NCBI RefSeq assembly: GCF_000143085.1 | Contig: NC_014315.1 | Coordinates: 929,001-993,000, forward strand | Source: Nitrosococcus watsonii C-113 | GTDB taxonomy: Bacteria > Pseudomonadota > Gammaproteobacteria > Nitrosococcales > Nitrosococcaceae | Length of the DNA: 64,000 nt | Direction of reading: 5' to 3' | Shown here: positions 11,613 through 25,738 of the stretch, one piece after another | Layout of the letters: every line of letters starts with the position of its first letter | How positions within the stretch are numbered: position 1 is the first letter of the stretch | The notes under the pieces: generated by a model | The model's database searches: none | Seen by the model: only the letters and a program-made list of their open reading frames with translations | What the model was told of the DNA's origin: nothing | Translations under genes and position numbers: made by a program

Positions 11613-12392
11613 ATGTTAATATGGCGACATCGTGCCCTTTTCCGGCGTTTTCTGGCGCGGGAAATTAAAAGCCGGTATCTTGGCAGTATCAGCGGTTATT
11701 TCTGGGTTCTGGTTCAGCCGCTGGCCCAGCTCGCTTTGTATTCCCTGGTTTTTACCACTATTTTTAAGGTTCGCTTTCCGGAGCTCGAGCAGCACAGCTT
11801 TGTGGAGTTTGTCGCCATTGCCCTATGGCCTTGGGTCGCCTTTCATGAGGGGGTTATGCGGGCAACGACGGCGATCACTAATAATGCGGGGCTGATTAGA
11901 AAAATTGCCCTGCCCCATGAGCTGCTGGTGTATGCGGCGGTGGGCGGCAGCTATATCGTCCATGGAGTAGGCTTTTTGCTGGTGTTAGGGGTGCTCACGA
12001 TGCTTAGTGCCGAGTTGTTTCTGAATACTTTGCCGCTGGTGTTGGGGTTGTGGGGGCTACTTTTGTTGCTGACCCTGGGGATAGCCCTGATTCTGTCGGC
12101 GCTGCAAGTTTTTTTGAAAGATATTGAACATCTGCTTGCCCCGGTGTTCATGCTTTTATTTTACGCTTCGCCGATTTTATATCCCCTCTCGTTAGTGCCA
12201 GACCCTTTCCATACCTTGATTATGGCTAATCCCTTGAGCTATTTCCTCGACCGTTTACGGGCCTTGCTGATGTTTGGGGAGTGGGTTCCCAGTGGAGCCG
12301 ATATCCTGGCATTGCTGGGCAGTGGGCTGATCTTTATAGTGGGATTGCGATTGTTCCGGCGTTGTGCCGGCCGGTTCGAGGAATTTTTATAG
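11613..12392 (+). CDS. wzm: ABC-2 type polysaccharide/O-antigen exporter permease (Wzm-like)
   Basis: Inner-membrane half of an ABC exporter (259 aa, typical for Wzm/TagG). It starts with the interfacial segment ALFRRFLAREIKSRYLGSISGYFWVLVQPLAQLALYSLVFTTIF, the hallmark of polysaccharide ABC-2 permeases. About six membrane helices follow, with the conserved YASPILYPLSLVP block near residue 190 and a late NPLSYFLDRLRALL. With the ATPase encoded directly downstream it should move an undecaprenyl-linked glycan across the inner membrane. It heads the large glycan gene region; a gap of one base separates its stop from the GTG start of the ATPase gene. Confidence 0.9.
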   Translation: MLIWRHRALFRRFLAREIKSRYLGSISGYFWVLVQPLAQLALYSLVFTTIFKVRFPELEQHSFVEFVAIALWPWVAFHEGVMRATTAITNNAGLIRKIALPHELLVYAAVGGSYIVHGVGFLLVLGVLTMLSAELFLNTLPLVLGLWGLLLLLTLGIALILSALQVFLKDIEHLLAPVFMLLFYASPILYPLSLVPDPFHTLIMANPLSYFLDRLRALLMFGEWVPSGADILALLGSGLIFIVGLRLFRRCAGRFEEFL

Positions 12393-12393
12393 C

Positions 12394-13584
12394 GTGGCCC
12401 CGCAACTTCTGGTAAAGCTGGACAACGTCAATAAGTGTTACCCGAAGCTGACCTCATCCCGGGAGCGATTGCAGGCGCTATGGGCCGTATTGCGGGGAAA
12501 GGGGGAATATGCCAGTCATCCCGTACTCCAGGATATCTCCCTGGAAGTTTATCAAGGGGAAACCCTGGGGATTATCGGTGAGAACGGCGCGGGTAAATCC
12601 ACTTTGCTCAAGCATATTGCCGGCGTGGTTAAACCTTCTTCCGGCAAGGTGTGGGTCTCTGGCCGGATTGGCGCTTTGCTGGAGTTGGGCGCAGGCTTTC
12701 ATCCCGAGTACACAGGGCGAGAAAATCTACAGCTTTCCGGCGCCTTGATGGGCATGAGCGATGCCGAACTGCAGGATAAATTGGCGGGAATTATCGAGTT
12801 TGCGGATATCGGCGATTATATTGACGAGCCTATTAAACACTACTCCTCCGGCATGGTGGTACGGCTTGGGTTTGCCTTGATTACCGCGTCACGACCTGAT
12901 TTGCTCATTACTGATGAAGTCCTGGCGGTGGGCGATGAGTCGTTTCAGAAAAAATGCACCCGCTGGATGGAAGACTACCTTGGTAATGGCGGAACCTTGC
13001 TGCTGTGTTCCCATAGCATGTTCCATGTCCAGAAACTTTGCCAGAAAGCGTGCTGGATAAAGGAAGGGCGTATGGTGTCCTATGGCGAAGCGTTTCAGGT
13101 GACCCAAGCATACCTGGCTTACCATGAGGAGAAGTCCCGCCAGGAAGTTCGCCCCCAGGCCGCTTTATCGGCTGCGGCTTACCAGGTAAAGGTTGTATGG
13201 CTGCAAGGGGAAAAAGAGGGAGGGCTGGCGGTGATTCCCATGGGGGAAGATCTTGAGGTTAGAGGTGAGGTCTATTCTCCCGATGATAGGGCACCGACTG
13301 TGGCGGTGGGGATTATACGGATCAATGGCACCGAAATTTATGGCTTTACCTCCGATGTGGATGGGGTTGTGCTGAAACGTCAACAGCCCACCTGTTTTGC
13401 TTTTGCGCTGACTTTTCCCCGGCTGGCGCTTTTGCCGGGTAGGTACAAACTTTGCACCCATGCCATGGACCCCGAGGGAATGCGGTTGTTCGATGTGGTG
13501 GAAAGGGAGTTTCAGGTGGTGGGCCAGACTCGCGAGCTGGGGGTGTGCCGCCTGGCGCATGAGTGGCGAGAAAATCCACCTTAG
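12394..13584 (+). CDS. wzt: ABC exporter ATPase with C-terminal glycan-binding domain (Wzt-like)
   Basis: ATPase subunit of the exporter (about 396 aa). It has Walker A (GENGAGKSTLLKHIAG), the teichoic-acid/O-antigen type signature (HYSSGMVVRLGFAL) and Walker B (DLLITDEVLAVGDESF). The N-terminal 240 residues form the nucleotide-binding domain. Residues from about 255 on form a beta-rich extension like the Wzt C-terminal domain, which in E. coli O9a-type systems recognises the modified non-reducing end of the finished glycan. The GTG at 12394 is preferred; an in-frame ATG at 12364 would overlap wzm. Presence of this extension suggests that chain termination by a methyl or other cap is read before export, which fits the methyltransferase-coiled-coil protein encoded four genes later (15200). 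Confidence 0.9.
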   Translation: MAPQLLVKLDNVNKCYPKLTSSRERLQALWAVLRGKGEYASHPVLQDISLEVYQGETLGIIGENGAGKSTLLKHIAGVVKPSSGKVWVSGRIGALLELGAGFHPEYTGRENLQLSGALMGMSDAELQDKLAGIIEFADIGDYIDEPIKHYSSGMVVRLGFALITASRPDLLITDEVLAVGDESFQKKCTRWMEDYLGNGGTLLLCSHSMFHVQKLCQKACWIKEGRMVSYGEAFQVTQAYLAYHEEKSRQEVRPQAALSAAAYQVKVVWLQGEKEGGLAVIPMGEDLEVRGEVYSPDDRAPTVAVGIIRINGTEIYGFTSDVDGVVLKRQQPTCFAFALTFPRLALLPGRYKLCTHAMDPEGMRLFDVVEREFQVVGQTRELGVCRLAHEWRENPP

Positions 13585-15091: not shown

Positions 15092-15199
15092 AAATTAAGC
15101 CATATCTGTTGGTTAATAGTTAAAAAACGCGTCCCTGGCTAGCATAGTTAGTTACCATTGTTAAAATTTCTTTCAATTTCTCTTTTTTTTACCCGCACC

Positions 15200-18100
15200 A
15201 TGAATAGTAACGCCCCATTCAGCAAGTCAATGCCGGTTTCTTCTCCACCCTTAAAAGAACATTTATACATCCGAGAATTTGATCCCCAGGGAGAAGATTC
15301 CCTGGCTAAAATTGCTCGCCTTATCCGGCCCCATACTCAGGTATTGGATTTGGGCACGGGACCCGGCATTCTAGGGAAATATTTGTCTACGGCGTTAGGC
15401 TGCATCGTGGATGGCGTGGAAATGAGCGGGGACCAGGTACAACTTGCAAAACCCTTTTATCGGTATTTACGGATGGCTGATTTGGAGACAGCGCGGCTAG
15501 CGGCGCTTTTTCCGGGCCACGGAGCGGGAAATGAGACGGAATATTCAATAGATACTAGCAGCACCGACTCTAAGGAAGATACGCATCACCGCTACGACTA
15601 CATCGTCTGCGCCGATGTTCTTGAGCATCTGAAAAATCCTGGTGCCGTGGTCTCCCAATTGCCCACCTTGTTAAAACCAAATGGCCGGGTTTTGTTGTCT
15701 ATTCCCAATATCGCCCATGCGGGCGTGATTGCCGAGTTGCTAGTGGGGGAGTTTCGTTACCGTCCAGAGGGATTACTGGACTCGACCCATTTACGCTTTT
15801 TTACCCGCCAGTCCTTGCTGGAATTTCTGAACTGCCATGGCTTGGTGCCCCTGTCGATGGAAGGGATACCCTGTGATATCAGGGCGAGCGAATTTCGAAG
15901 CTACTATGTGGAGACACTGCCGCCTGCTATTTACCGTTTATTGCAAGCCTATCCCGATGCTTTAACCTATCAATTTATTGTTGAAGCAGCGCCGGGCGTC
16001 CAGGCTGCAAAAAAACTGGCGGCAGAACCCACGGCGCCTGAATTTCACTTTGCCTGCCGGCTTTATTGGCGTACGGGAGGAGCTGAATATCAGGAAGAAA
16101 ATAGTCGCTATGTGCTGGGTTGCATCGGTAAGGAGCACCAGACGATTCGGTTTTCTATGCCTGCCCTACCGGAAATTCCCATGGGGATACGGATCGCTCC
16201 CGCTGAGCGCCCAGGGTTTATGCAAATTCACCAAATTGCCCTCTACGATAAGGAAGAGCAGGGTATTTGGCAATGGCCAGGGAATACCGCTCATTTGCCG
16301 GTCGTTAATACCCACCAGATGGAATTTTCCCATGGCTGGAGCGCTCTTCTAGGAGTCAACGCGGTTTTAATGGGCAAGGACCCCTCTTTTGAATTGTCTC
16401 TTGAAGAATCGGCGCTAGCCTCTTTGCAAGCAGGTGGAACGCTAGAGTTGCAGATTTCATGGCCCTTGTCCGCTGATTTCATGGCGCTAACGCAACGCCT
16501 GGAGCAAAAAGATCGGGAGCTACAAGCGCGGGAGGAATTACTGCGGGAAAAAGAGCGTCTCCTGGTTCATCGTGACCGCCAATTAGAAGAAAAAGAGCGG
16601 CTACTAGAAGCTGGCAGGCAGGTTTTGCATGGGCTTCATGAACAACTGGCGGAGCAGCAGCGGGTGCTCACCGTCCATGAACAGCAGCTAGCGGAAACCA
16701 ATGCCTTGGCCGATTACTTAAAGGCTCGGTTAGACCATCAAGAGAGTTGGCGCGGTTGGGCGCGGCGTCCTTTCCGGCCTTTGAAGCGCTGGTATCTAAA
16801 ACGGCCCGAGGTTGAAACGGACGGCTCCCAACTTATTGACATCATCATTCCCGTTTATAATGCCTATGAGTATCTACGGGACTGCTTAGAGCGCCTGCGC
16901 CTCTGTACTCAGGAGCCTTACCGGCTGGTGCTTATCGATGATGCCTCAACGGACAGCCGTATTCAGACTCTATTTGAGGAGCTTGAGGCGGCGGGGGAGG
17001 AAGATATTCTGTTGCTGCGTAACGAATATAACCAGGGGTTTGTAGCTACCGCCAACCGGGGAATGTCCCTCGGCGCTAACGATGTGGTGCTGTTGAATTC
17101 CGATACCTTGGTAACCAGGAATTGGTTGGAAAAACTCAAACGTTGCGCCGCCTCGGACCCAAAAATAGGTACCATTACTCCTTTTACCAATCATGGGGAG
17201 ATTTGTTCTTTTCCGGAGTTTTGCCGGGAAAATCCTTTGCCCGACGATCCGGAATTGATCAACGAGGCCATGGATCGCCTGGATCTTGCCGTTTACCCGG
17301 ATATTCCCACCGGGGTTGGTTTTTGCCTTTATATTCGCCGAGCCCTTATCCAGCAGGTGGGTTTATTCGATGAAGCGGCATTTGGCCGGGGGTATGGAGA
17401 AGAAAATGACCTATGCTTGCGGGCGGCGCAAGCCGGTTTCCGGAATGTGCTCTGTAGCGATGCCTATGTAGCCCATGTGGGGGGAGGCTCCTTTGGCCAG
17501 GAAAAAAGCGCCGTCGGGGAAAAGCAAATGGCGGTGCTACTCAATAAACACCCCACTTACCTGGAGCAAGTCGACGACTTTATAAAAGGAGATCCCCTTA
17601 AACCCCTTCGGCAGTTAATTCAAAGTCAGTTAGAAAAGGCCGCTCCTTCCAGAAAGCCCGCTGTCTTGCATGTGATGCATGGCCACGGCGGGCCCGCCGT
17701 TTCCCAGGGCCGGGGCGGAGGGATAGGGATGTATATCGAACATTTAACGGCCTGCCTTGCTGGTGAATTCCGGCATTATGGGTTGATTGCCCAGGGGCAA
17801 GCATGGACTCTAAAAGAGCTTTTTTCCGGGAAAGAGGGGCAAGGTTATTGCTTTCAGCGACAGGATAACGAAACCTGGACGGCTTTTTTGGAGGGGATTT
17901 GCGCTTGGCTGGACGTTAAGCTGTGTCATATTCATCAAATTGCCGGTTGCCGCGATGGTTTGCTGGAAGCTTTTGCCGGGACGGCGATTCCCTATGGGGT
18001 CAGTATTCACGATTTTCTTTTGGCGTGTCCAACGGTGAACCTTTTGGATAGCAAGGGACATTACTGCCATGGCGTCACCGATATTGACCAGTGCCAGCAA

Positions 18101-18970
18101 TGCCTCGGGGAACAGGCTTCCTTCGCTGCTATTAATATTGGAGAATGGCGGCGGCGGCATGAAAGTTTTTTAGCCAAGACCGCTTTCGTGCTTGCTCCCT
18201 CGGTCTGGGCTCAGCGCACTTTTAATAATTATTTTCCTGGGGTTCCGGTCACTTTCATCCCTAATTTTCAGCAGCCCAGGTTATCTAGGCACAGGGGAGG
18301 GAATATCCGTGGCTTCTTGCTCCCACAAGATGATATAAAGTCGATTGGTCTGCTGGGCGCTATCGGGCCGGTGAAAGGCGCTAGACAGTTGGAACAGTTA
18401 GTGGAAAGAACCCGGGAGCGGCAATTGCCCTTGCGCTGGGTAGTGATTGGCTACACGGATCGGCAGGGGGACCCCCCTGTGCCTTACCAGAGCGAGGATC
18501 AGATAGTAACGCTCCATGGCCCTTATAGGCAGGCAGATCTGCCAGTCCTGCTGGATCATTACGCTATCTCTTTGGTGGTCTTTCCTTCGGCGGGTCCAGA
18601 AACTTTTTCTTATACGCTCTCAGAAGCTTGGGCAGCCGGCCGACCGGTGTTGGTGCCTCCTATTGGGGCGTTGCAAGAACGGGTGGCAGAGTCTGGCGCT
18701 GGCTGGATCATGGAGGATTGGCAAGATATGGACAGGATTTTGGACCGGGTAATGGCTTTGGTTTATCCGGAAGTGGCGGAATCCCTGCTGTCAATTCAGG
18801 AACGTGTGGAACAGGCTAATCGCCAGCAGGCGGATCAATCGTGTTCTGCAAGCCTTTTGATTGCTGAAATCTACCGGCGCGCTTTTACCGCTTCTCCGCC
18901 GCCTGGGTTAATTAGCCTGAGCTCCTTGCGGGTTTATGAGGCAGCGTGCCAGGAGCATGATAGGGATTGA
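15200..18970 (+). CDS. multi-domain glycan protein: methyltransferase, coiled coil, GT2, GT4
   Basis: A 1256-residue cytoplasmic fusion. Domain 1 (about 30-220) is a class I SAM methyltransferase, with motif I VLDLGTGPG and the following DYIVCADVLEHL. A beta-rich linker follows. A coiled coil (about 430-515) is built from Glu/Arg/Leu heptads such as REELLREKERLLVHRDRQLE. Domain 3 (about 543-785) is a GT2 glycosyltransferase: IDIIIPVYNAYEYLRDCL, LIDDAS, LLNSDTLV (metal-binding Asp motif) and GYGEENDLCLRAAQAG. Domain 4 (about 820-1230) is a GT4-like unit ending with ETFSYTLSEAWAAGRPVLVPP. The ATG at 15200 is preferred over an upstream TTG at 15158, although its ribosome site is weak. The methyltransferase plus coiled-coil plan resembles WbdD-type chain-length regulators, here joined to polymerising domains; that parallel is inference. 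Confidence 0.85.
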   Translation: MNSNAPFSKSMPVSSPPLKEHLYIREFDPQGEDSLAKIARLIRPHTQVLDLGTGPGILGKYLSTALGCIVDGVEMSGDQVQLAKPFYRYLRMADLETARLAALFPGHGAGNETEYSIDTSSTDSKEDTHHRYDYIVCADVLEHLKNPGAVVSQLPTLLKPNGRVLLSIPNIAHAGVIAELLVGEFRYRPEGLLDSTHLRFFTRQSLLEFLNCHGLVPLSMEGIPCDIRASEFRSYYVETLPPAIYRLLQAYPDALTYQFIVEAAPGVQAAKKLAAEPTAPEFHFACRLYWRTGGAEYQEENSRYVLGCIGKEHQTIRFSMPALPEIPMGIRIAPAERPGFMQIHQIALYDKEEQGIWQWPGNTAHLPVVNTHQMEFSHGWSALLGVNAVLMGKDPSFELSLEESALASLQAGGTLELQISWPLSADFMALTQRLEQKDRELQAREELLREKERLLVHRDRQLEEKERLLEAGRQVLHGLHEQLAEQQRVLTVHEQQLAETNALADYLKARLDHQESWRGWARRPFRPLKRWYLKRPEVETDGSQLIDIIIPVYNAYEYLRDCLERLRLCTQEPYRLVLIDDASTDSRIQTLFEELEAAGEEDILLLRNEYNQGFVATANRGMSLGANDVVLLNSDTLVTRNWLEKLKRCAASDPKIGTITPFTNHGEICSFPEFCRENPLPDDPELINEAMDRLDLAVYPDIPTGVGFCLYIRRALIQQVGLFDEAAFGRGYGEENDLCLRAAQAGFRNVLCSDAYVAHVGGGSFGQEKSAVGEKQMAVLLNKHPTYLEQVDDFIKGDPLKPLRQLIQSQLEKAAPSRKPAVLHVMHGHGGPAVSQGRGGGIGMYIEHLTACLAGEFRHYGLIAQGQAWTLKELFSGKEGQGYCFQRQDNETWTAFLEGICAWLDVKLCHIHQIAGCRDGLLEAFAGTAIPYGVSIHDFLLACPTVNLLDSKGHYCHGVTDIDQCQQCLGEQASFAAINIGEWRRRHESFLAKTAFVLAPSVWAQRTFNNYFPGVPVTFIPNFQQPRLSRHRGGNIRGFLLPQDDIKSIGLLGAIGPVKGARQLEQLVERTRERQLPLRWVVIGYTDRQGDPPVPYQSEDQIVTLHGPYRQADLPVLLDHYAISLVVFPSAGPETFSYTLSEAWAAGRPVLVPPIGALQERVAESGAGWIMEDWQDMDRILDRVMALVYPEVAESLLSIQERVEQANRQQADQSCSASLLIAEIYRRAFTASPPPGLISLSSLRVYEAACQEHDRD

Positions 18971-19001
18971 AAAAGAGAGCGGAACTGGAGAAAGTCTTAT
19001 C

Positions 19002-19931
19002 ATGGGTGGGTTAGCAAGGGCGGTGATTGAATGTCCCAGCATTATTGCGATCATTGTCACTTACGAACCGGACCTTGAGGCGCTGGAGCGGCTGCTCCTT
19101 GCCCTGTTTTCCCAAGTCGAAGCGGTGGTGGTAGTCGACAATGGTTCAAGTGAAGATATGCGCCAATGGCTCAAGCGATTGAATATTGCTAGCCTCCATT
19201 GTGCGGCGTTACCCGAAAACCAGGGAGTCGCTGCGGCTCAGAATGAGGGCATCGCTTGGGCGAAAGAGCAGGGCGCTACCCATGTGGTCCTGTTTGACCA
19301 GGACAGTGTGCCCGCTCCCGATATGGTTGCCCGGTTGTACGGGGCATGGCGGCAACTGGAGCAGGACGGGCTATCCGTGTGCGCCGTGGGTCCTAATTAC
19401 CAGGATTTAAGGCGACCTAAAACGTCGCCGTTTGTTCGGGTGCGGGGATTAATGATTAGCCGCTGCCAGTGCCGAAAGGAGGGCGATGTGCTGGAAGTAG
19501 ATCATTTAATTTCCTCCGGGAGCCTGATCCCGATGATGGTGTTGGATGCCGTGGGAGGTATGGTGGAGGGGTTGTTTATTGATTACATTGATACCGAGTG
19601 GGTATTGCGCGCCCAGCGCAGGGGTTATCGGGCTTATGGTATTTGCGGCGCCAGAATGAGCCATGTTCTAGGAAATAAGTCAATTCGCTTTCTGGGCCGT
19701 GAAGTTGTAGCGCGTAGCCCCTTGAGGCATTATTATCTGTTCCGTAATGCGCTTTGGCTTTACCGGCAAAGCTGGGTGCCTTGGGGGTGGAAACTGGCGG
19801 ACGGGTTCCGTTTGCTACAACGTTTTTGTTTCTATGCTTTATTTGCTCCACCCCGGTTGCAGCAGGTGAAAATGATGACCCTGGGGCTTTGCCATGGCCT
19901 GTGGGGCCGTCAAGGGAAATATCCTGCCTGA
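19002..19931 (+). CDS. GT2 glycosyltransferase, rhamnosyltransferase-like (RfbF/WbbL type)
   Basis: GT-A fold glycosyltransferase of about 309 aa. It contains IIAIIVTYEPDLEALERLLLAL, VVVVDNGSSED, a DxD-like site in VVLFDQDSVPAPDMV, and the acceptor-side pattern GLFIDYIDTEWVLRAQRRGY that is typical of dTDP-rhamnosyl transferases of the RfbF group. A C-terminal hydrophobic and Trp-rich stretch may associate with the membrane. The ATG at 19002 follows GGAG by about 12 bases; longer starts at 18936 or 18957 would overlap the upstream gene. Its role is to add one sugar, possibly rhamnose, to the lipid-linked glycan. The donor cannot be proven from sequence. Confidence 0.82.
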   Translation: MGGLARAVIECPSIIAIIVTYEPDLEALERLLLALFSQVEAVVVVDNGSSEDMRQWLKRLNIASLHCAALPENQGVAAAQNEGIAWAKEQGATHVVLFDQDSVPAPDMVARLYGAWRQLEQDGLSVCAVGPNYQDLRRPKTSPFVRVRGLMISRCQCRKEGDVLEVDHLISSGSLIPMMVLDAVGGMVEGLFIDYIDTEWVLRAQRRGYRAYGICGARMSHVLGNKSIRFLGREVVARSPLRHYYLFRNALWLYRQSWVPWGWKLADGFRLLQRFCFYALFAPPRLQQVKMMTLGLCHGLWGRQGKYPA

Positions 19932-19943
19932 GAGAAAACGATC

Positions 19944-21299
19944 ATGCCTCTAGTGAGCGTGCTTATGCCCGCCTATAACCACGAAGAATATGTGTCCTCG
20001 GCAGTGGAAAGCGTCCTCGGCCAGACTCATAAAAATCTGGAGCTGATTGTGATTGATGACGCCTCCTCGGATGGCACCTGGGCGGTTTTACAATCTTTCC
20101 AGGATCATCGCCTGCGGCGGTACCGGCATGACCGCAACCAAGGCGCCCATGCCACGCTAAACGAGGCGATGGCTCTGGCGCAAGGGGAATACATTGCCAT
20201 CTTGGATTCGGATGATAGGTATGACCCCCGCCGGCTTGAACGGCTGTTGTCGGAAGTCGGGCGCGCTAGCGGCAACGATGTTTTTATTTTTAGCGATGTG
20301 GATTTCATTGGGCCAACGGGAGGCGGTATTGCCGATCATCCCCGCGCCCAAGGCTATAAAACGCAGCGCAAGCGCTGGGAAACGTTAAGTCCGGCAAGCT
20401 GGTTTTTTGCCAGCAATCTTGCCATGACTACTTCTAATTTCTTTTTTTCCCGTTCCCTGGCAAATCGGGTTGGCGATTTTTCCCCCCTGCGCTATACCCA
20501 TGATTGGGATTGGGCATTACGGGCTACCTTGCAGGGAACTATTCCTCTCTGGGTTCGGGAGGATCTGCTTGCCTATCGGGTCCATGGTGCCAATACCCTC
20601 TCCGAGGGTGATCTCTGGCGGCACATTCACGAAAACTCCTATGTGCAGGCCAGGGCGCTGCTCTCATTGGGGAAACAGTTAGGGGAGGGGAGCCCGGAGG
20701 GAAAAGCCCATGGGGAAGACATTCTCTTGGCCTTGATGGGTAATGAGAGCCTGCATCCCATTTCCCTTTTATGTTATTTGGTTTATGGTCTTGCGGGGAC
20801 AGAAAATCTGTGCTTGCTAGATTGTGCGGGCGGGGGTAGTACCGGTTGGCGGTTACAGCGGCTAGCGGAGGCAGTTGCTTGCCCCCCGGGGGTCTTTCGT
20901 TCCATGGCTCACCTGGCGGAGCGGGAGAGAGCGATTGTCGTCCAAGCAGCTATGCTGGATGAGCGCTGGCAAGCCATGGAACAGATGAGACGAGAAATTG
21001 CAGGACAGAAGGCCATGGTTGAAGATCGCTGGGCTACCATCCAGCAGATGAGCGGCGAAATTGCTAGTCGGAATCAATGGATTGACGATCTGAGCACCGT
21101 GGTAAAAGAAAAGGAACATTGTATTAGCGCTCAGGGGACCATGCTAGATGAGCGCTGGCAGGCCATGGAACAGATGGGCAAGGAAATTGCGCAGCGGGAT
21201 GCCCAGCTTGAAACAGCGCGGGCGGAAATACAGAAGCTCAATAGAAATCTTTTCATCCGGGCAGGGCGCTATCTCAGGCGGATGTTGGCGGCCCTTTAG
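19944..21299 (+). CDS. GT2 glycosyltransferase with C-terminal repetitive coiled coil
   Basis: The N-terminal 230 residues are a classic GT2 domain: VSVLMPAYNHEEYVSSAVESVL, LIVIDDASSDGTW, AILDSDDRY (metal-binding DxDD) and YTHDWDWALRATLQG. The C-terminal part (about residues 325-430) is helical and repetitive, with three related units beginning MLDERWQAMEQM, MVEDRWATIQQM and MLDERWQAMEQM, likely a coiled coil for oligomerisation. The corresponding DNA units are at 20952, 21015 and 21141. The short basic tail (LFIRAGRYLRRMLAAL) may bind the membrane surface. Spaced 12 bases after the preceding glycosyltransferase gene. The sugar donor is unknown. Confidence 0.85.
   Translation: MPLVSVLMPAYNHEEYVSSAVESVLGQTHKNLELIVIDDASSDGTWAVLQSFQDHRLRRYRHDRNQGAHATLNEAMALAQGEYIAILDSDDRYDPRRLERLLSEVGRASGNDVFIFSDVDFIGPTGGGIADHPRAQGYKTQRKRWETLSPASWFFASNLAMTTSNFFFSRSLANRVGDFSPLRYTHDWDWALRATLQGTIPLWVREDLLAYRVHGANTLSEGDLWRHIHENSYVQARALLSLGKQLGEGSPEGKAHGEDILLALMGNESLHPISLLCYLVYGLAGTENLCLLDCAGGGSTGWRLQRLAEAVACPPGVFRSMAHLAERERAIVVQAAMLDERWQAMEQMRREIAGQKAMVEDRWATIQQMSGEIASRNQWIDDLSTVVKEKEHCISAQGTMLDERWQAMEQMGKEIAQRDAQLETARAEIQKLNRNLFIRAGRYLRRMLAAL
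20952..21189 (+). repeat. three intragenic 49-base repeat units in a GT2 gene
   Basis: Units at 20952-21000, 21015-21063 and 21141-21189. The first and third agree in about 42 of 49 positions by my count; the middle one is more diverged. They encode the coiled-coil units of the glycosyltransferase and probably arose by internal duplication. Confidence 0.7.
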
Positions 21300-21318: not shown

Positions 21319-22389
21319 ATGGAAATAACCAATCTGGATTTGCCAGCGGATCTGGAAAGAGTGCTCCACGAGCACGTTTTTAGCAAATGGGATCAAGCCT
21401 TTCTTAAAACCCCCGAAGGAGAAGCAGGCAAACAGGAAGTACTGGTCCATCGTTTCAATAATGCGTTGCGCTTTACCGTGCCCTGGCTCAAACGCAGTCT
21501 CGATCTTTCTAATGCCTGTGTCGTCGAGATCGGTTGCGGATCGGGTTCGAGCACAGCCGCCCTTGCCCATCACTGCCGCGAGGTGGTGGGTTTCGATATC
21601 GACTCCGGTGCCATAAAGGCCGCCGAGGCGCGCTGCCAAGCCTACGGGCTTTCTAACGTCCGACTTCAGAGCGTGGCTCCGGAAGATTTGCTGCCAGCTA
21701 TTGGCAGCCTGCCGCAAAAGGCTGATGTTTATCTTCTCTATGCTGTCATTGAGCATCAAACTTACCTGGAGCGGATCGAGACGCTCTCCACTCTTTGGAA
21801 GTTGCTTGCACCAGGCGGAGCCTTAGTTGTTATCGAGACTCCCAACCGGTTTGCCTATATAGACAAGCACACCTCGGAGCTTGAATTTTATCATCTGCTG
21901 CCAGACGATTTGGCCTTTCGATATATTCAGCACGTGCCCAGGCGGGCTTTCAAGGATACGATTGAACCTTTGATACAGCAGCAAACATGGGCTCAGGCAA
22001 GTGAGCTGCGGGTGAGATGGGGTCTGGGGGCAAGCTATCATGAGTTTGATATCGCCCTGGGGGAACCCTTAGATGAGATTATCGTAGCCGATGGCTTCGA
22101 GCAGGAGATGGTGGATTTTTTCCCCATAGACATGGATGAGGAATTGCTCACCCGCTTCTTTCACGCCCGAGTGCCGAGCAAACCGATTGGCTTTTCCCGG
22201 GCCGTGCTCAATCTCATTCTGCGCAAGCCTGGGGGGGAATTAGACCGGCGTGGAGCGGCTGAATTTGCGCGTAGCCGGAGAACTCAGATTGGTCTGAGAC
22301 TGAACTCCGTGCCCGCGCCGCCGCAGACCCTAGCCCAACGCGCCTGGATGCGAGTCCGGACCTTTGTCGATCAAAAAGTTGGAATCTAA
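21319..22389 (+). CDS. class I SAM-dependent methyltransferase
   Basis: Protein of 356 aa with a Rossmann methyltransferase domain near residues 55-180. Motif I is VVEIGCGSGSSTAALAHHC, the acidic strand-2 end is VVGFDIDSGAIKAAEARC, and motif IV is ADVYLLYAVIEHQTYLERIETL, followed by LLAPGGALVVIETPNRFAYID. The remaining C-terminal half is specific to this protein. A GGGGGAGG-like ribosome site precedes the ATG. Lying between glycosyltransferase genes, it probably methylates a sugar or the glycan end, or makes a methylated intermediate. The substrate cannot be read. Confidence 0.83.
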   Translation: MEITNLDLPADLERVLHEHVFSKWDQAFLKTPEGEAGKQEVLVHRFNNALRFTVPWLKRSLDLSNACVVEIGCGSGSSTAALAHHCREVVGFDIDSGAIKAAEARCQAYGLSNVRLQSVAPEDLLPAIGSLPQKADVYLLYAVIEHQTYLERIETLSTLWKLLAPGGALVVIETPNRFAYIDKHTSELEFYHLLPDDLAFRYIQHVPRRAFKDTIEPLIQQQTWAQASELRVRWGLGASYHEFDIALGEPLDEIIVADGFEQEMVDFFPIDMDEELLTRFFHARVPSKPIGFSRAVLNLILRKPGGELDRRGAAEFARSRRTQIGLRLNSVPAPPQTLAQRAWMRVRTFVDQKVGI

Positions 22390-22454: not shown

Positions 22455-23669
22455 ATGGCCACTATTGCCTGGCTTATTCCGAGTCTCCTTGAAGGTTCAG
22501 GAGGCCACCGCACTTTCCTTCAGCATGCGGATTATCTGCAACAACAGGGGCACCGCTGCTCCCTATACTTGGAAAATCCTGAGCAATTTTCTGGCCCCAA
22601 TCTGCGTAAGCGTATCAAGCGGATGTTTGGGTATGATTTCCGGGAAGTCCATTCGGGTTGGTCGAATATTCGGCCAGCGGAGCTGGTATTCGCCACCATA
22701 TGGTACTCTGCTAAGGTAGTTCGTGATTTGCCCTTTCCTTGTGTCAAAGCCTATTTCGTCCAGGATTTCGAGGCCCAGTTCAATTCCATGGGAGATGGTT
22801 ATCTTATGGCCGAGAATTCCTATCGCTACGGCCTTTATCCGGTGACTATCGGCCGTTGGTTGCCGGCCTTATTAGAGCGCCAGTTCGGGGTGGCGGCTAG
22901 TCATTTCGATTTTTGCGCTGATTTAGAGAAGTATCGCCCGCTATCAAGGGTAAGGCGGGAACGGGCGATCTGCTTCATTTATCAACCGGATAAGCCCCGA
23001 CGTTGCGTGGAGTTAGGGCTTGAGGCGTTGGGCCTCGTTAAACATTGGATGCCGGAGGTTAGGATTTATCTCTATGGTTCCAAGAGCAGCGCCCGGGCCT
23101 GGTTCGAACACGAAAACCTGGGCCTGTTGAGCTTAGAAGATTGCAATCGGCTTTACAACCGCTGTGCGGTGGGTCTATGTCTTAGCTCTACTAACCCCTC
23201 CCGGGTTCCCTTTGAGATGATGGCTGCTGGCCTGCCGGTAGTGGAGATGTATCGGGACAATACTTTATATGATTTTCCCGAGGAGGCGGTGTTGCTATGC
23301 GAGCCGACCCCGGAATCTCTGGCTCAGGGAATGAAGATTATTTTGGCTTCCTCTAAGCGGGCTGAAGCTATGAGTCAAGCTGGGATAGATTATATGGCTA
23401 ACCGGCCGTTGGAATATGGGTTGGCGCAATTTCACGCTACGGTCAGTAGCCTGTTAAAAGGCACGGAGCCTTTTCCGCAGGAGCCAGCCCCCATGTATCG
23501 GCGGCCCGCGCTCGTTGCCGAGTCTCGCCCGGCAGGCACTGGGGCCGTTGCTGTTCCAGAGCCCTTGGTGGACCGGGGTCGTCTGGCTTTTTTGCCGCCT
23601 TTGCCACGCAAGGTCATACGGTTTTTTTATTATCGGTTGCGGCGGGCGCTGGCGGCGGTGAAAATATGA
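22455..23669 (+). CDS. WsaF-like GT-B glycosyltransferase (rhamnosyltransferase type)
   Basis: A 404-residue GT-B glycosyltransferase. The start IAWLIPSLLEGSGGHRTFLQHADYLQQQGH and the middle YFVQDFEAQFNSMGDGYLMAENSYRYGL match the WsaF/RgpF-like group that builds rhamnose-containing S-layer or cell-wall glycans. The donor-binding half carries NPSRVPFEMMAAGLPVVEM, with the conserved Glu of retaining GT-B enzymes. The C-terminus is basic and rich in Arg and Tyr. The gene overlaps the following HAD-like gene by four bases (ATGA), so their products are likely made together. Confidence 0.8.
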   Translation: MATIAWLIPSLLEGSGGHRTFLQHADYLQQQGHRCSLYLENPEQFSGPNLRKRIKRMFGYDFREVHSGWSNIRPAELVFATIWYSAKVVRDLPFPCVKAYFVQDFEAQFNSMGDGYLMAENSYRYGLYPVTIGRWLPALLERQFGVAASHFDFCADLEKYRPLSRVRRERAICFIYQPDKPRRCVELGLEALGLVKHWMPEVRIYLYGSKSSARAWFEHENLGLLSLEDCNRLYNRCAVGLCLSSTNPSRVPFEMMAAGLPVVEMYRDNTLYDFPEEAVLLCEPTPESLAQGMKIILASSKRAEAMSQAGIDYMANRPLEYGLAQFHATVSSLLKGTEPFPQEPAPMYRRPALVAESRPAGTGAVAVPEPLVDRGRLAFLPPLPRKVIRFFYYRLRRALAAVKI

Positions 23670-25738
23670 ACAATGGCACGGGAAAGATAGCTGCTCAATC
23701 CTATGCGTTATTGACGATTGATGTTTGGGATACTTTGCTGCGCCGGCGCTGTCACCCCGATAGCGTGAAGTTGCAAGTGTGCCGGTATGTGGCGCTGAAT
23801 TACGCGCAACATCTGCATCCTGAGAACCAGGATATTTGGGTTTTGTTACGCCTGCGCCAACAGGCGGAAAAAGAATTGGGAGATAAGAGCAGACAAGCGG
23901 GGCAAGATGATGAATACCGCCATCGGGAAGTTTACCGGCGTTGGCTGGCATTGGCGGGACTAACTCCCTTTCCCCTAAACCGCGAAACTCAGGAGCAATT
24001 GCTCTTGACCCTGGAGCGGGTGGAAATGGCCCAGGAAAAATTTGTTTCCTATCCGGATCCCACCATTGCGGCAACCCTAGAGCATTATCCTGTCTCTAGG
24101 CGGTGTTTTCTTTCGGACTTTTATCTGCCGGCTGCGGCCATCCAGAAACTGCTAGCTCATCATGGTCTGTCCCATTGGGCTGCGGAGGGGGTGGTCTCTT
24201 GCGAGGTAGGTTTAAACAAACGCTCTGGGCGGCTTTATCAACATTTGCACCAACACTTTGGGGTGACCCCAGGCCAGCATCTGCATGTGGGTGACAATGC
24301 TGAGGCGGATGTGCGGGCGGCAAAAAGAATGGGTGTGGTGGCGCTCCATTTTCAACCCCGGGATGAGCACGAAAAACGTCGGCAGCGAGAGGCTTCCTTT
24401 CATGCTCGAGCGGATGCCCTCCAAACGGCATCCCGAGATTTACTTGCTATTCCGCCTCCCTTCCCGTGTGAACGGCAGGAGATTTATGACTATGGCCGGA
24501 AATGCTCCCTGCTGTTAATAGGCTTTACTACTTGGGTCATGGAACGGGCAGTAGCGGATCAGGTAAAAGAATTATATTTCTTTACTCGGGAAGGTGAATT
24601 TTTTATTGAAATTTACCGCCGGCTGGTGAAATGGGATTGGTTAGGTTTTTCACCGCCCCCCGCCAGTGTGCTCCCCGTCAGTCGACTTGCTACTTTTGCC
24701 GCCTCCCTAAAGAATTTATCCACGACGGAGCTGATGCGTTTGTGGAATCAATACAGTACTCAGTCTTTAGGCGCGTTGTTGAAATCCCTTGGTTTGGAGC
24801 CGGTAGAGTTCACTGAGCAGGCTGTTCGCCATGGGTTGGAGCTAACCCGGCCTATTACCTATCCCTGGCAGGATACCCGCATTCATGCTTTTCTCGGCGA
24901 TCCTGAGGTCAGCGCAGAAATTGAAGCCCATCTGAAGGCTAAGCAGGGCCAATTGTCTACTTACCTGGAATCCATGGGCCTGGAAAATGTCGCCGGTTCG
25001 GTGGGAATTGTTGATATCGGCTGGCGAGGGACCATCCAGGACAATTTGGCTCGTCTGCTGCCGTCAGTGGCGCTGCACGGTTATTATTTAGGTTTGAATC
25101 GGTTTCTTAATATCCAGCCAGAAAATATTCGGAAGGAGGCTTTTGGCCCCAATCTTAATAAGAATAACGAGAGGGGTTCTCTCTTGGATTTTGTGGCGCC
25201 TCTAGAAATGCTGTGCAATTCCCCTTCCGGTAGTGTGATGGGTTATGAGAAGGGTGAGCACAGTATTCAGGCTTATCGTCATACCGACGAGGAAGAAAAT
25301 CGGATATATGATGCGTATGTTCGTCATTTTCAGGCTGGAGTATTAGACGCAGTCCCCTTTTGGGTGGATTTTCTGCGCACCCATGCTTATTCGTCCAGCG
25401 AGTTTCGGCCACTTGCCATGGATATTTGGTCGGATATCATTCAACACCCCCCGCCTTTTTTGGCACAAGCCTATTTTCAGCTTAATCATAATGAGACTTT
25501 CGGAATGGGGGGATTCTCCAATAAGCAGCGTATGCTAACCACGGGAGAGGTAATGGGCGCCTTTGTTTCCAAAAAACAGCGGACAAAGCTTCATGAATTT
25601 TTACGGGAGAATGGTTGGGTGCCAGGATTGTTGGCTTGTCCCGATGTTGATTCGACCTTTCGCTGGGTGCTGGGTAAGTTTTTATGGGCCTTGAGTATTC
25701 GGCGCTGGGTCCGGCGCCGTTTCTTCTCAAGCCTATAA
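23666..25738 (+). CDS. HAD-superfamily protein of the COG5610 type
   Basis: A 690-residue protein whose N-terminal third is a HAD-type hydrolase fold. Motif I is LLTIDVWDTLLRRR, the next block is CFLSDFYLPAAAIQKLL, and the late motif is HVGDNAEADVRAAKRMGV with the paired acidic residues. The remaining 420 residues are specific to the family found in glycan gene clusters (for example ELYFFTREGEFFIEIYRRLV and VGIVDIGWRGTIQDNLARLL). The activity of these proteins is not established; phosphatase or phosphotransfer to a glycan is possible. It overlaps the WsaF-like gene by four bases and its stop lies two bases from the stop of the convergent minus-strand gene. Confidence 0.72.
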   Translation: MNNGTGKIAAQSYALLTIDVWDTLLRRRCHPDSVKLQVCRYVALNYAQHLHPENQDIWVLLRLRQQAEKELGDKSRQAGQDDEYRHREVYRRWLALAGLTPFPLNRETQEQLLLTLERVEMAQEKFVSYPDPTIAATLEHYPVSRRCFLSDFYLPAAAIQKLLAHHGLSHWAAEGVVSCEVGLNKRSGRLYQHLHQHFGVTPGQHLHVGDNAEADVRAAKRMGVVALHFQPRDEHEKRRQREASFHARADALQTASRDLLAIPPPFPCERQEIYDYGRKCSLLLIGFTTWVMERAVADQVKELYFFTREGEFFIEIYRRLVKWDWLGFSPPPASVLPVSRLATFAASLKNLSTTELMRLWNQYSTQSLGALLKSLGLEPVEFTEQAVRHGLELTRPITYPWQDTRIHAFLGDPEVSAEIEAHLKAKQGQLSTYLESMGLENVAGSVGIVDIGWRGTIQDNLARLLPSVALHGYYLGLNRFLNIQPENIRKEAFGPNLNKNNERGSLLDFVAPLEMLCNSPSGSVMGYEKGEHSIQAYRHTDEEENRIYDAYVRHFQAGVLDAVPFWVDFLRTHAYSSSEFRPLAMDIWSDIIQHPPPFLAQAYFQLNHNETFGMGGFSNKQRMLTTGEVMGAFVSKKQRTKLHEFLRENGWVPGLLACPDVDSTFRWVLGKFLWALSIRRWVRRRFFSSL

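Follow-up and report, generated by a model that had tools for sequence, protein, structure and literature searches.

We think it likely that a single protein of Nitrosococcus watsonii C-113 acts as the terminator, the length ruler and the polymerase for an O-polysaccharide of the ABC-transporter pathway. Its gene lies in a 64,000-nucleotide stretch of contig NC_014315.1 (the window). Single proteins that unite terminator, ruler and polymerase have been described before, namely Klebsiella O12 WbbB and O7 ORF6, and for ORF6 the activities were demonstrated in vitro (PMC11231755); what is new is a broad family sharing the full domain order found here. An earlier, sequence-only reading had proposed that this fusion combines polymerisation and termination. 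The domain architecture, the pattern of coil lengths and the linkage with Wzt speak in part for that proposal. Its one-chain idea is not new.

The reading frame (15158-18970, forward strand) would encode 1270 aa if started at TTG 15158. The ATG at 15200, codon 15 of this frame, coincides with the start of the ORF of the closest congener; hence, the gene likely spans 15200-18970 and encodes 1256 aa (Table 1). Residue numbers refer to the 1270-aa frame. From the N- to the C-terminus, the protein consists of a methyltransferase, a beta-sandwich, a coiled coil, a basic/aromatic linker, a GT2 domain and a GT4 domain. The enzymes match Pfam families Methyltransf_23 (residues 49-230, E 5.9e-19), Glycos_transf_2 (562-734, E 4.8e-17) and Glyco_trans_1_4 (1062-1191, E 5e-9). 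These domains, together with a helix predicted by AlphaFold2, bear out the methyltransferase-coiled coil-GT2-GT4 order that had been read from the sequence. In NCBIfam, the protein had no match above any curated cut-off. Neither Pfam nor NCBIfam places a kinase domain in it, and there is no room for one, since the methyltransferase ends at about residue 277 and the beta-sandwich, which occupies the interval before the coil, starts at about 290.

Table 1. Features of the fusion gene and its neighbours in the window.
Feature	Position	Strand	Evidence
Wzm-type ABC-2 permease	11613..12392	+	Pfam ABC2_membrane
Wzt-type ATPase, C-terminal Wzt_C-like domain (280-396)	12364..13584	+	Pfam, aligned Wzt proteins
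Fusion-protein gene, 1256 aa	15200..18970	+	reading frame from TTG 15158, congener start
SAM-dependent methyltransferase domain, residues 36-277, motif I DLGTGPG	15263..15988	+	Pfam, family profile, model vs 3cc8
Beta-sandwich domain, residues 290-440, without Pfam family	16025..16477	+	Pfam, family profile, AlphaFold2 pLDDT
Coiled coil, 90 residues (440-529), proposed ruler	16475..16744	+	AlphaFold2, periodicity
Basic/aromatic linker, residues 530-551, SWRGWARRPFRPLKRW...	16745..16810	+	sequence
GT2 domain, NSD (NXD-type) motif, putative polymerase module 1	16826..17527	+	Pfam, family profile
GT4 domain, EX7E intact (ETFSYTLSE), putative polymerase module 2	17660..18799	+	Pfam, family profile
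GT2 glycosyltransferase, kept beside fusion gene across genus	18936..19931	+	Pfam, genus comparison
GT2 glycosyltransferase with C-terminal coiled coil of its own	19944..21299	+	Pfam
Second methyltransferase gene, same cluster	21319-22389		Pfam
WsaF-like glycosyltransferase	22455..23669	+	Pfam WsaF_C E 1.1e-19; 2x0d E 2.1e-9
PRPP-dependent ribofuranosyltransferase homologue (HAD phosphatase + transferase)	23666..25738	+	7shg, Bcs3

We propose the methyltransferase domain as the chain terminator. Among the best 50 matches listed, its model comes nearest to 3cc8 (203 residues aligned with Z 25.2 and rmsd 2.4). The methyltransferase matches listed (11; the best 60 of 233; the best 50) did not include WbdD, an absence that carries no weight against homology. 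Those listed from a viral structure library included methyltransferases and mRNA-capping enzymes, with nothing telling. The beta-sandwich had been overlooked in the sequence-only reading. Folded alone (residues about 290-440), it reached a mean pLDDT of 90.1, and it is possibly a glycan-binding module. Foldseek against the PDB returned no match for it below E 0.06. With VIA-align, the top match was a circularly permuted beta-glucanase (Z 6.4, 134 aligned, rmsd 4.7), followed by the phage PRD1 coat protein (Z 6.0) and concanavalin-type lectins (Z 4.8-5.5); since these values lie within the tool's stated noise, 'carbohydrate-binding' stays a guess. A tblastn search of a plasmid collection with the beta-sandwich of one relative (L088) matched a single record, itself a member of the fusion family.

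Structure prediction, which had been suggested as a check on the proposed architecture, gave a methyltransferase, a beta domain and one helix: in the single-chain AlphaFold2 model, residues 439-547 form one unbroken helix, the final ~24 residues of which have a pLDDT of 51-60. Counted from where the beta domain ends up to the SWR motif, the coil has 90 residues, close to the roughly 85 first estimated, and lies within this longer predicted helix. The heptad period is exact, and hydrophobic power at periods of 3.5 (p=0.0005) and 7.0 (p=0.00025) relative to 4000 shuffles indicates that the periodicity is not due to chance. By eye, heptads in the first half of the coil have Leu regularly at only one position and a charged residue at the second core position; the coil may therefore be a stable single helix. 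The linker that follows may contact the membrane. Of the 103 distinct family members, 92 (including one that is mis-anchored) carry an S..[FYW]R motif, related to that of the linker, behind the coil.

Coil length is constant at 90 residues across four Nitrosococcus species, even though the coil sequences are only 60-86% identical to that of the window. We measured coil lengths across the family from the end of the beta domain to the S..[FYW]R motif, anchors that were picked after inspecting the sequences. The set comprised 91 of the 103 distinct proteins and left out ten without the coil-end motif, L093 (mis-anchored) and L097 (atypical motif). The coils of Vandammella NML 00-0135 and NML 03-0146 differ by 7 residues, and those of Delftia tsuruhatensis NBRC 16741 and its close relative G501 by 11. 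The family mean spectrum of the coils peaks at 3.50, with p<0.05 in 37 of 42 non-redundant coils. Across 32 phylogenetically independent pairs, net differences in coil length favour a ladder of 3.6 residues (mean cosine 0.53; p=2e-5, the lowest value that 50,000 simulations can give, or 2e-4 after scan correction), with a poorer fit to a period of 3.5 (0.28, p 0.009). Quantisation by heptads only, with a period of 7, was ruled out over 32 pairs (mean cosine -0.05). Tail and core length differences, which are weak controls that mostly differ by 1-3 residues, showed no 3.6 ladder. We prefer the independent-pair test because plain resultant lengths are inflated by relatedness: the methyltransferase and beta core also gave an R of 0.31 at 3.6, and the coil gave 0.41 (p about 0.05, 18 representatives with <60% identity). 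The seam periodicity of the coil, at 3.5, differs from the length quantum of 3.6, which counts against the ruler model. Moreover, a quantised length is no proof of a ruler, since it is expected in any coiled coil that must hold register. Our literature search on coiled-coil indels in multiples of seven found no paper.

The full domain order is common to 57 of the 80 best named relatives. Two genomes from genera of the family other than Nitrosococcus, G001 and G005, have the gene in two parts that separate directly behind the coil (535+753 and 546+751 aa); in one of the two pairs, the ORFs overlap at ATGA. In L054 and L067 (by Pfam) and L061 (by profile), the methyltransferase-beta-coil part is joined to GT modules of another or more distant kind. 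Among loci with full flanks, a Wzt-like ORF was found in 36 of 50 with the beta domain and in none of the six without it (Fisher p=0.0012). The other 14 had no Wzt-like ORF over 180 bits in the available flanking DNA; Wzt matches were weaker or cut in three of these (L064, L069 and L105). In the window, the Wzm and Wzt genes lie upstream of the fusion gene. The Wzt matches Wzt_C with 24.9 bits, under the Pfam cut-off of 30.4 bits, and is among the nine of ten aligned Wzt proteins that match at E<=0.001, confirming the extended C-terminal domain already noticed in the adjacent Wzt. Thus, a putative terminator sits at the distal end of the predicted coil, and its gene is linked to Wzm and to a Wzt whose C-terminal domain may bind a cap. 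The ribofuranosyltransferase homologue matches 7shg (E 4.6e-35 over residues 10-621) and Bcs3 (E 2.7e-6), and rmlC is present in the genome. We treat the domains, the predicted long helix, the heptad periodicity, the genus-constant length, the quantised differences, the fission at the joint and the Wzt linkage as observations.

The terminator of WbbB is a Kdo transferase, not a methyltransferase. As described in PMC11231755, WbbB resembles the window protein in holding polymerase, coiled-coil ruler and terminator in a single polypeptide, and differs in that its three modules belong to GT families GT99, GT102 and GT103. Klebsiella pneumoniae O7 ORF6, by its description in the same source, shares with the window protein a methyltransferase, an Ig-like (CBM-like) beta domain, a coiled coil and two C-terminal GTs, and its locus likewise combines an ABC-transporter O-antigen with a separate ribofuranosyltransferase. 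Unlike the window protein, ORF6 has a 223-residue kinase between methyltransferase and CBM, has a methylphosphate cap, and has two GT2 domains in place of GT2 and GT4. WbdD of E. coli O9a and O8, the only comparison drawn in the sequence-only reading, is described (PMC3482155, PMC5082667) with a distal methyltransferase, a coiled-coil ruler and a C-terminal contact to membrane and polymerase, as proposed here; the O9a cap is read by Wzt, and binding of a 3-O-methyl cap by a Wzt domain is described in PMC9445017. By the same descriptions, O9a WbdD has a kinase between methyltransferase and coil, which the window protein lacks, while O8 WbdD is methyltransferase-only, as is the window protein. 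WbdD further differs in that its polymerase (WbdA) is separate, the product is polymannose and no beta domain is described; this two-gene layout is that of the split relatives in G001 and G005.

We infer the activities, the cap chemistry, the oligomer and the effect on chain length. The GT2 and GT4 modules, with the WsaF-like and ribofuranosyltransferase-like enzymes, would lengthen a lipid-linked chain near the membrane, while the coiled coil would hold the N-terminal methyltransferase about 13 nm off (90 residues at about 0.15 nm each). A non-reducing end that arrives at the methyltransferase would receive an O-methyl cap without prior phosphorylation, as with E. coli O8 WbdD, and the cap would end chain growth. 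By analogy with homologues, the Wzt C-terminal domain would recognise the cap, and Wzm/Wzt would export the chain. The beta-sandwich probably helps to grip the glycan or to orient the methyltransferase. A literature search on Nitrosococcus and O-antigen, judged by titles and abstract starts, returned nothing on this locus and neither biochemical nor glycan data for the species.

Alternatively, and in our view with a clearly smaller probability, the fused methyltransferase caps and stops the chain while kinetics or another factor sets its length, the coil serving only to dimerise or trimerise the protein and to tether it to partners and membrane. The precedent is Geobacillus stearothermophilus WsaE of the S-layer polyrhamnan, in which an N-terminal capping O-methyltransferase (2-O-methyl cap) is fused to two rhamnosyltransferases, with wzm/wzt and a WsaF partner nearby (as described in PMC2943079, PMC3898925). 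The window likewise has a one-chain methyltransferase with two GT domains and a WsaF homologue. Methylation by WsaE is reported to be independent of chain length in vitro (PMC2943079), and in L109 a methyltransferase is joined directly to GT2-GT4, with no beta domain and no space for a coil, so a coil is not required for such a fusion to exist. The descriptions of WsaE (PMC2943079, PMC3898925) mention neither coiled coil nor beta domain. Coil length is constant in the genus despite diverging sequence and differs by whole turns elsewhere, and PMC11231755 describes the role of the coil as a ruler as established for both E. coli O9 and Klebsiella O12; both argue for the ruler. It is improbable that the methyltransferase modifies internal residues or a precursor, as part of a modifying polymerase with no role in termination. 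The second methyltransferase gene in the cluster does mean that methylation need not be capping, but the domain lies at the opposite end of the helix from the polymerase, the locus is linked with a Wzt bearing the C-terminal domain, and in 11 of the 80 best named relatives the methyltransferase-beta-coil protein has no GT fused to it. A spurious or decayed fusion, or a chance low-complexity helix, to which only the E/K/R/Q-rich composition of the helix points, is scarcely credible and already contradicted by conservation: all three enzymes have intact motifs, there are three full-length congeneric orthologues (70-87% identical), and the architecture is family-wide.

If a terminator, ruler and polymerase are indeed combined here, the chain length of surface polysaccharides could be predictable from the gene across many genera, the ruler model could be tested on natural series of rulers (for example, pairs exactly seven residues apart) with no need for engineered proteins, and a methyltransferase-only one-chain format would join the Klebsiella O12 and O7 set. 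If the beta domain binds glycan, the family would be the second among terminators to carry a glycan-binding module; PMC11231755 states that a CBM was absent from all other terminators found to date. More tentatively, and as a reading that we hold to be less likely than not, the family may form a graded set of natural rulers under one conserved capping head, such that the O-chain length of each species could be read from its gene. The head would be the methyltransferase together with a beta-sandwich of a new kind that grips the glycan, carried on coils ranging from about 60 to more than 200 residues; steps of whole helical turns would account for most of the evolution in length, and the head would thereby keep its angle to the polymerase. 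A terminator has also been proposed independently for Acidovorax oryzae RS-2, where orf1718.1, in a wzt/wzm cluster, is described as a methyltransferase with a coiled coil at its C-terminus, a likeness by description only (PMC11597636).

The open frame at 15158-18970 (+) begins with TTG and encodes 1270 amino acids, whose numbering is used here; translation of the fusion protein probably begins at the ATG at 15200, because the ORF of the closest congener starts at the equivalent methionine. The sequence-only reading had described a fusion of a methyltransferase (MT), a coiled coil of ~85 residues, GT2 and GT4, adjoining a Wzt with an extended C-terminal domain, and had proposed that it may be a ruler and polymerase in one. 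Its architecture was right: all four parts were located in one frame, with a coil of 90 residues, and a beta-sandwich without a Pfam family (the beta domain; with the MT, the core) lies between MT and coil. Read directly, the sequence contains DLGTGPG (motif I) in the methyltransferase, NSD in GT2, and ETFSYTLSE, an EX7E motif, in GT4. PMC11231755 describes an NXD motif for an O7 GT2.

Features of the window locus and domains of the fusion protein (residues in 1270-aa numbering)
Feature	Position	Strand	Remarks
Methyltransferase	residues 36-277		fusion protein
Beta domain	residues 290-440		fusion protein
Coiled coil	residues 440-529		fusion protein
Basic/aromatic linker	residues 530-551		fusion protein
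GT2	residues 557-790		fusion protein
GT4	residues 835-1214		fusion protein
GT2 with C-terminal coiled coil	19944-21299	+	internal repeat: MLDERWQAMEQM twice
Methyltransferase gene	21319-22389	+	in window; separate from fusion gene
Ribofuranosyltransferase homologue (PRPP-dependent type)	23666-25738	+	690 aa; 7shg, E 4.6e-35

According to published work, the coils of O9 WbdD and of the O12 protein are rulers, polymerase and terminator are joined in one chain in O12 and O7 (PMC11231755), O8 WbdD is methyltransferase-only (PMC3482155, PMC5082667), and an Aquifex Wzt domain binds a 3-O-methyl cap (PMC9445017); the sources used also include PMC2943079, PMC10433991, PMC3898925, PMC11597636 and PMC10299916. 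The outline of the one-chain terminator-ruler-polymerase reading is probably right, but its principle was already known from the one-chain O12 and O7 systems. What the fusion family adds is an MT-only one-chain format with a beta domain, the spread of that format, fission at the terminator/polymerase joint, and coil lengths that tend to differ by whole turns. At ~1.5 Å per residue, the window coil would span ~135 Å, against ~200 Å for the O9a ruler in the published work; with a similar geometry, its chains should therefore be shorter than the O9a ones.

Structure prediction had been proposed as a check. An AlphaFold2 model of residues 34-556, from an alignment of 51 sequences (mean pLDDT 84.9, pTM 0.69), predicts a methyltransferase, a beta-sandwich and then a single helix through the coil region (439-547), with pLDDT of 51-60 over its final ~24 residues. 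The structure closest to the methyltransferase model is 3cc8 (Z 25.2, rmsd 2.4, 203 aligned). Folded alone, the beta domain gave a confident prediction (pLDDT 90.1), and structure comparisons gave no confident fold match for it; its conserved core comprises LRLDPADRPGFLHLH..., LLTGDDPW.ELP and GWPMSADY (family consensus, 51 sequences).

The fusion protein was found in all six examined genomes of the taxonomic family, in two pieces in two of them (G001 and G005, from other genera). In G001, 12 bases separate the end of the terminator half (535 aa) from the polymerase half (753 aa). The G005 halves measure 546 and 751 aa, their stop and start overlapping as ATGA. Both breaks fall directly after the coil and basic linker, and thus the same protein occurs naturally in the WbdD/WbdA two-gene format. 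A quick tree was built from 103 distinct MT+beta cores, of which 86 are fused, 14 standalone and 3 linked to other GTs; these three states require six changes on it. It places the two split proteins as sisters (SH-aLRT 96) next to the four fused Nitrosococcus proteins.

Within the order, matches at E<=1e-40 come from 7 of 63 genomes, namely the six of the family and one that matches through its GT2 part alone; a sample of the class yields 4 matching genomes among 369 at E<=1e-25, and one of these 4 is the genome of the window. We also scanned named genomes, keeping the best 80 of 275 relatives; by recorded names, about half of these 80 are Comamonadaceae, 12 are Competibacteraceae and two are Acidithiobacillus. 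The order MT-beta-coil-GT2-GT4 occurs in 57 of the best 80, a beta domain without that GT2 in 15 (11 standalone, 3 joined to other or more distant GT modules, 1 ended by a contig edge), and no beta domain in 8. One of the latter, L109:7974-10733 from Candidatus Contendobacter odensis, joins MT straight to GT2-GT4, with neither beta domain nor coil space, and is, judged by its sequence, a natural ruler-less, WsaE-like form. GT2-less frames in the examined loci number 16 (two being the same protein), and for 6 of the 16 the locus encodes a GT2/GT4 homologue at another position.

A Wzt with a C-terminal domain does lie near the fusion gene, as proposed: the window locus encodes Wzm, this Wzt, an unassigned protein, a hexapeptide-repeat transferase and the fusion protein, together with a GT2, the coil-bearing GT2, the separate methyltransferase, a WsaF-like GT and the ribofuranosyltransferase homologue. 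Among named loci with full flanks (>5 kb before, >4 kb after), a Wzt-like ORF (>180 bits) is present in 36 of 50 with a beta domain vs 0 of 6 without (Fisher p 0.0012), a value that overstates the linkage because five of the six beta-less loci are Competibacteraceae by recorded names. The ORF has at least 380 aa in 33 of the 36. When the short loci are counted too, 80 in all, the figures become 40/72 and 0/8.

In their own loci, three congeners likewise carry the fusion gene, both GT2s, the WsaF-like GT and the ribofuranosyltransferase homologue, the last of these being a shorter, 483-aa ORF in congener G003. The separate methyltransferase was found only in the window and in none of these three loci; it is possibly a recent, glycan-modifying gain. 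rmlC lies outside the locus, elsewhere in the genome. The genome also has a 39-kb contig; 5000 bases of it were compared, and 79% of these match a Nitrosococcus oceani plasmid at 96% identity. Pfam sees the 690-aa ribofuranosyltransferase homologue as a HAD hydrolase only; its homology suggests that the Nitrosococcus glycan may contain ribofuranose, and in gene content the locus is like that of Klebsiella O7 (ORF6 and a ribofuranosyltransferase). Since the other loci scanned, G001 and G005 included, hold no WsaF-like homologue of at least 60 bits and no ribofuranosyltransferase-like one of at least 80 bits, partner proteins vary. The coil-bearing GT2 measures 451, 455, 511 and 511 aa across four species in which the fusion-protein coil is constant, and 775-786-aa proteins in three Contendobacter loci (L035, L036, L038) resemble the window's copy (122-134 bits).

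Leucines are spaced by seven in the window coil, with periodicity at 3.5 (p=0.0005) and 7 (p=0.00025) and not at 3.6 (p=0.90). Averaged over the family, the spectrum has its maximum at 3.50; of 42 representative coils, 37 give p<0.05 at period 3.5 (400 shuffles each). Within Nitrosococcus, coil length is constant at 90 though coil identity to the window is 60-86%; the G005 coil is 14 residues longer. Family coil lengths were taken alignment-free, as residues between two anchors, the end of the beta domain and the S..[FYW]R motif. The 32 pairs that are independent on the tree have length differences of 1, 3, 4, 4, 4, 4, 7, 7, 7, 10, 11, 12, 13, 14, 15, 18, 21, 21, 22, 24, 25, 25, 26, 28, 29, 30, 32, 36, 40, 43, 51 and 158 residues, with a mean cosine of 0.53 at 3.6 residues (p 2e-5, the floor, vs +/-3 jitter; 2e-4 once periods 3-5 are scanned). 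The controls, namely the tail that links coil to GT2 (-0.28) and the core (-0.20), show no such signal at 3.6 residues, and 5 of the 32 pairs (differences 1, 12, 13, 24 and 30) are contrary to the ladder. Another set, of 31 closest pairs chosen greedily at a core identity of at least 0.6, gave 0.60 at 3.6 residues. Clean 7-residue insertions separate the coils of Vandammella NML 00-0135 and NML 03-0146, and likewise those of genomes G440 and G439, both from the genus to which Paracidovorax citrulli belongs. We read these whole-turn differences as selection for an unbroken coil in kept register, a pattern that is compatible with a ruler function but is no proof of it.

Tandem 11-residue units (IAQLEQSSRDS) enlarge the coil of L144 (genome G544; apparently the L081 protein), which is 51 residues longer than that of its close relative L143. 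The longest stretch between beta domain and GT2 in the list, 388 residues in L093:8004-12644 from Lampropedia hyalina, is by eye coil-like over much of its length.
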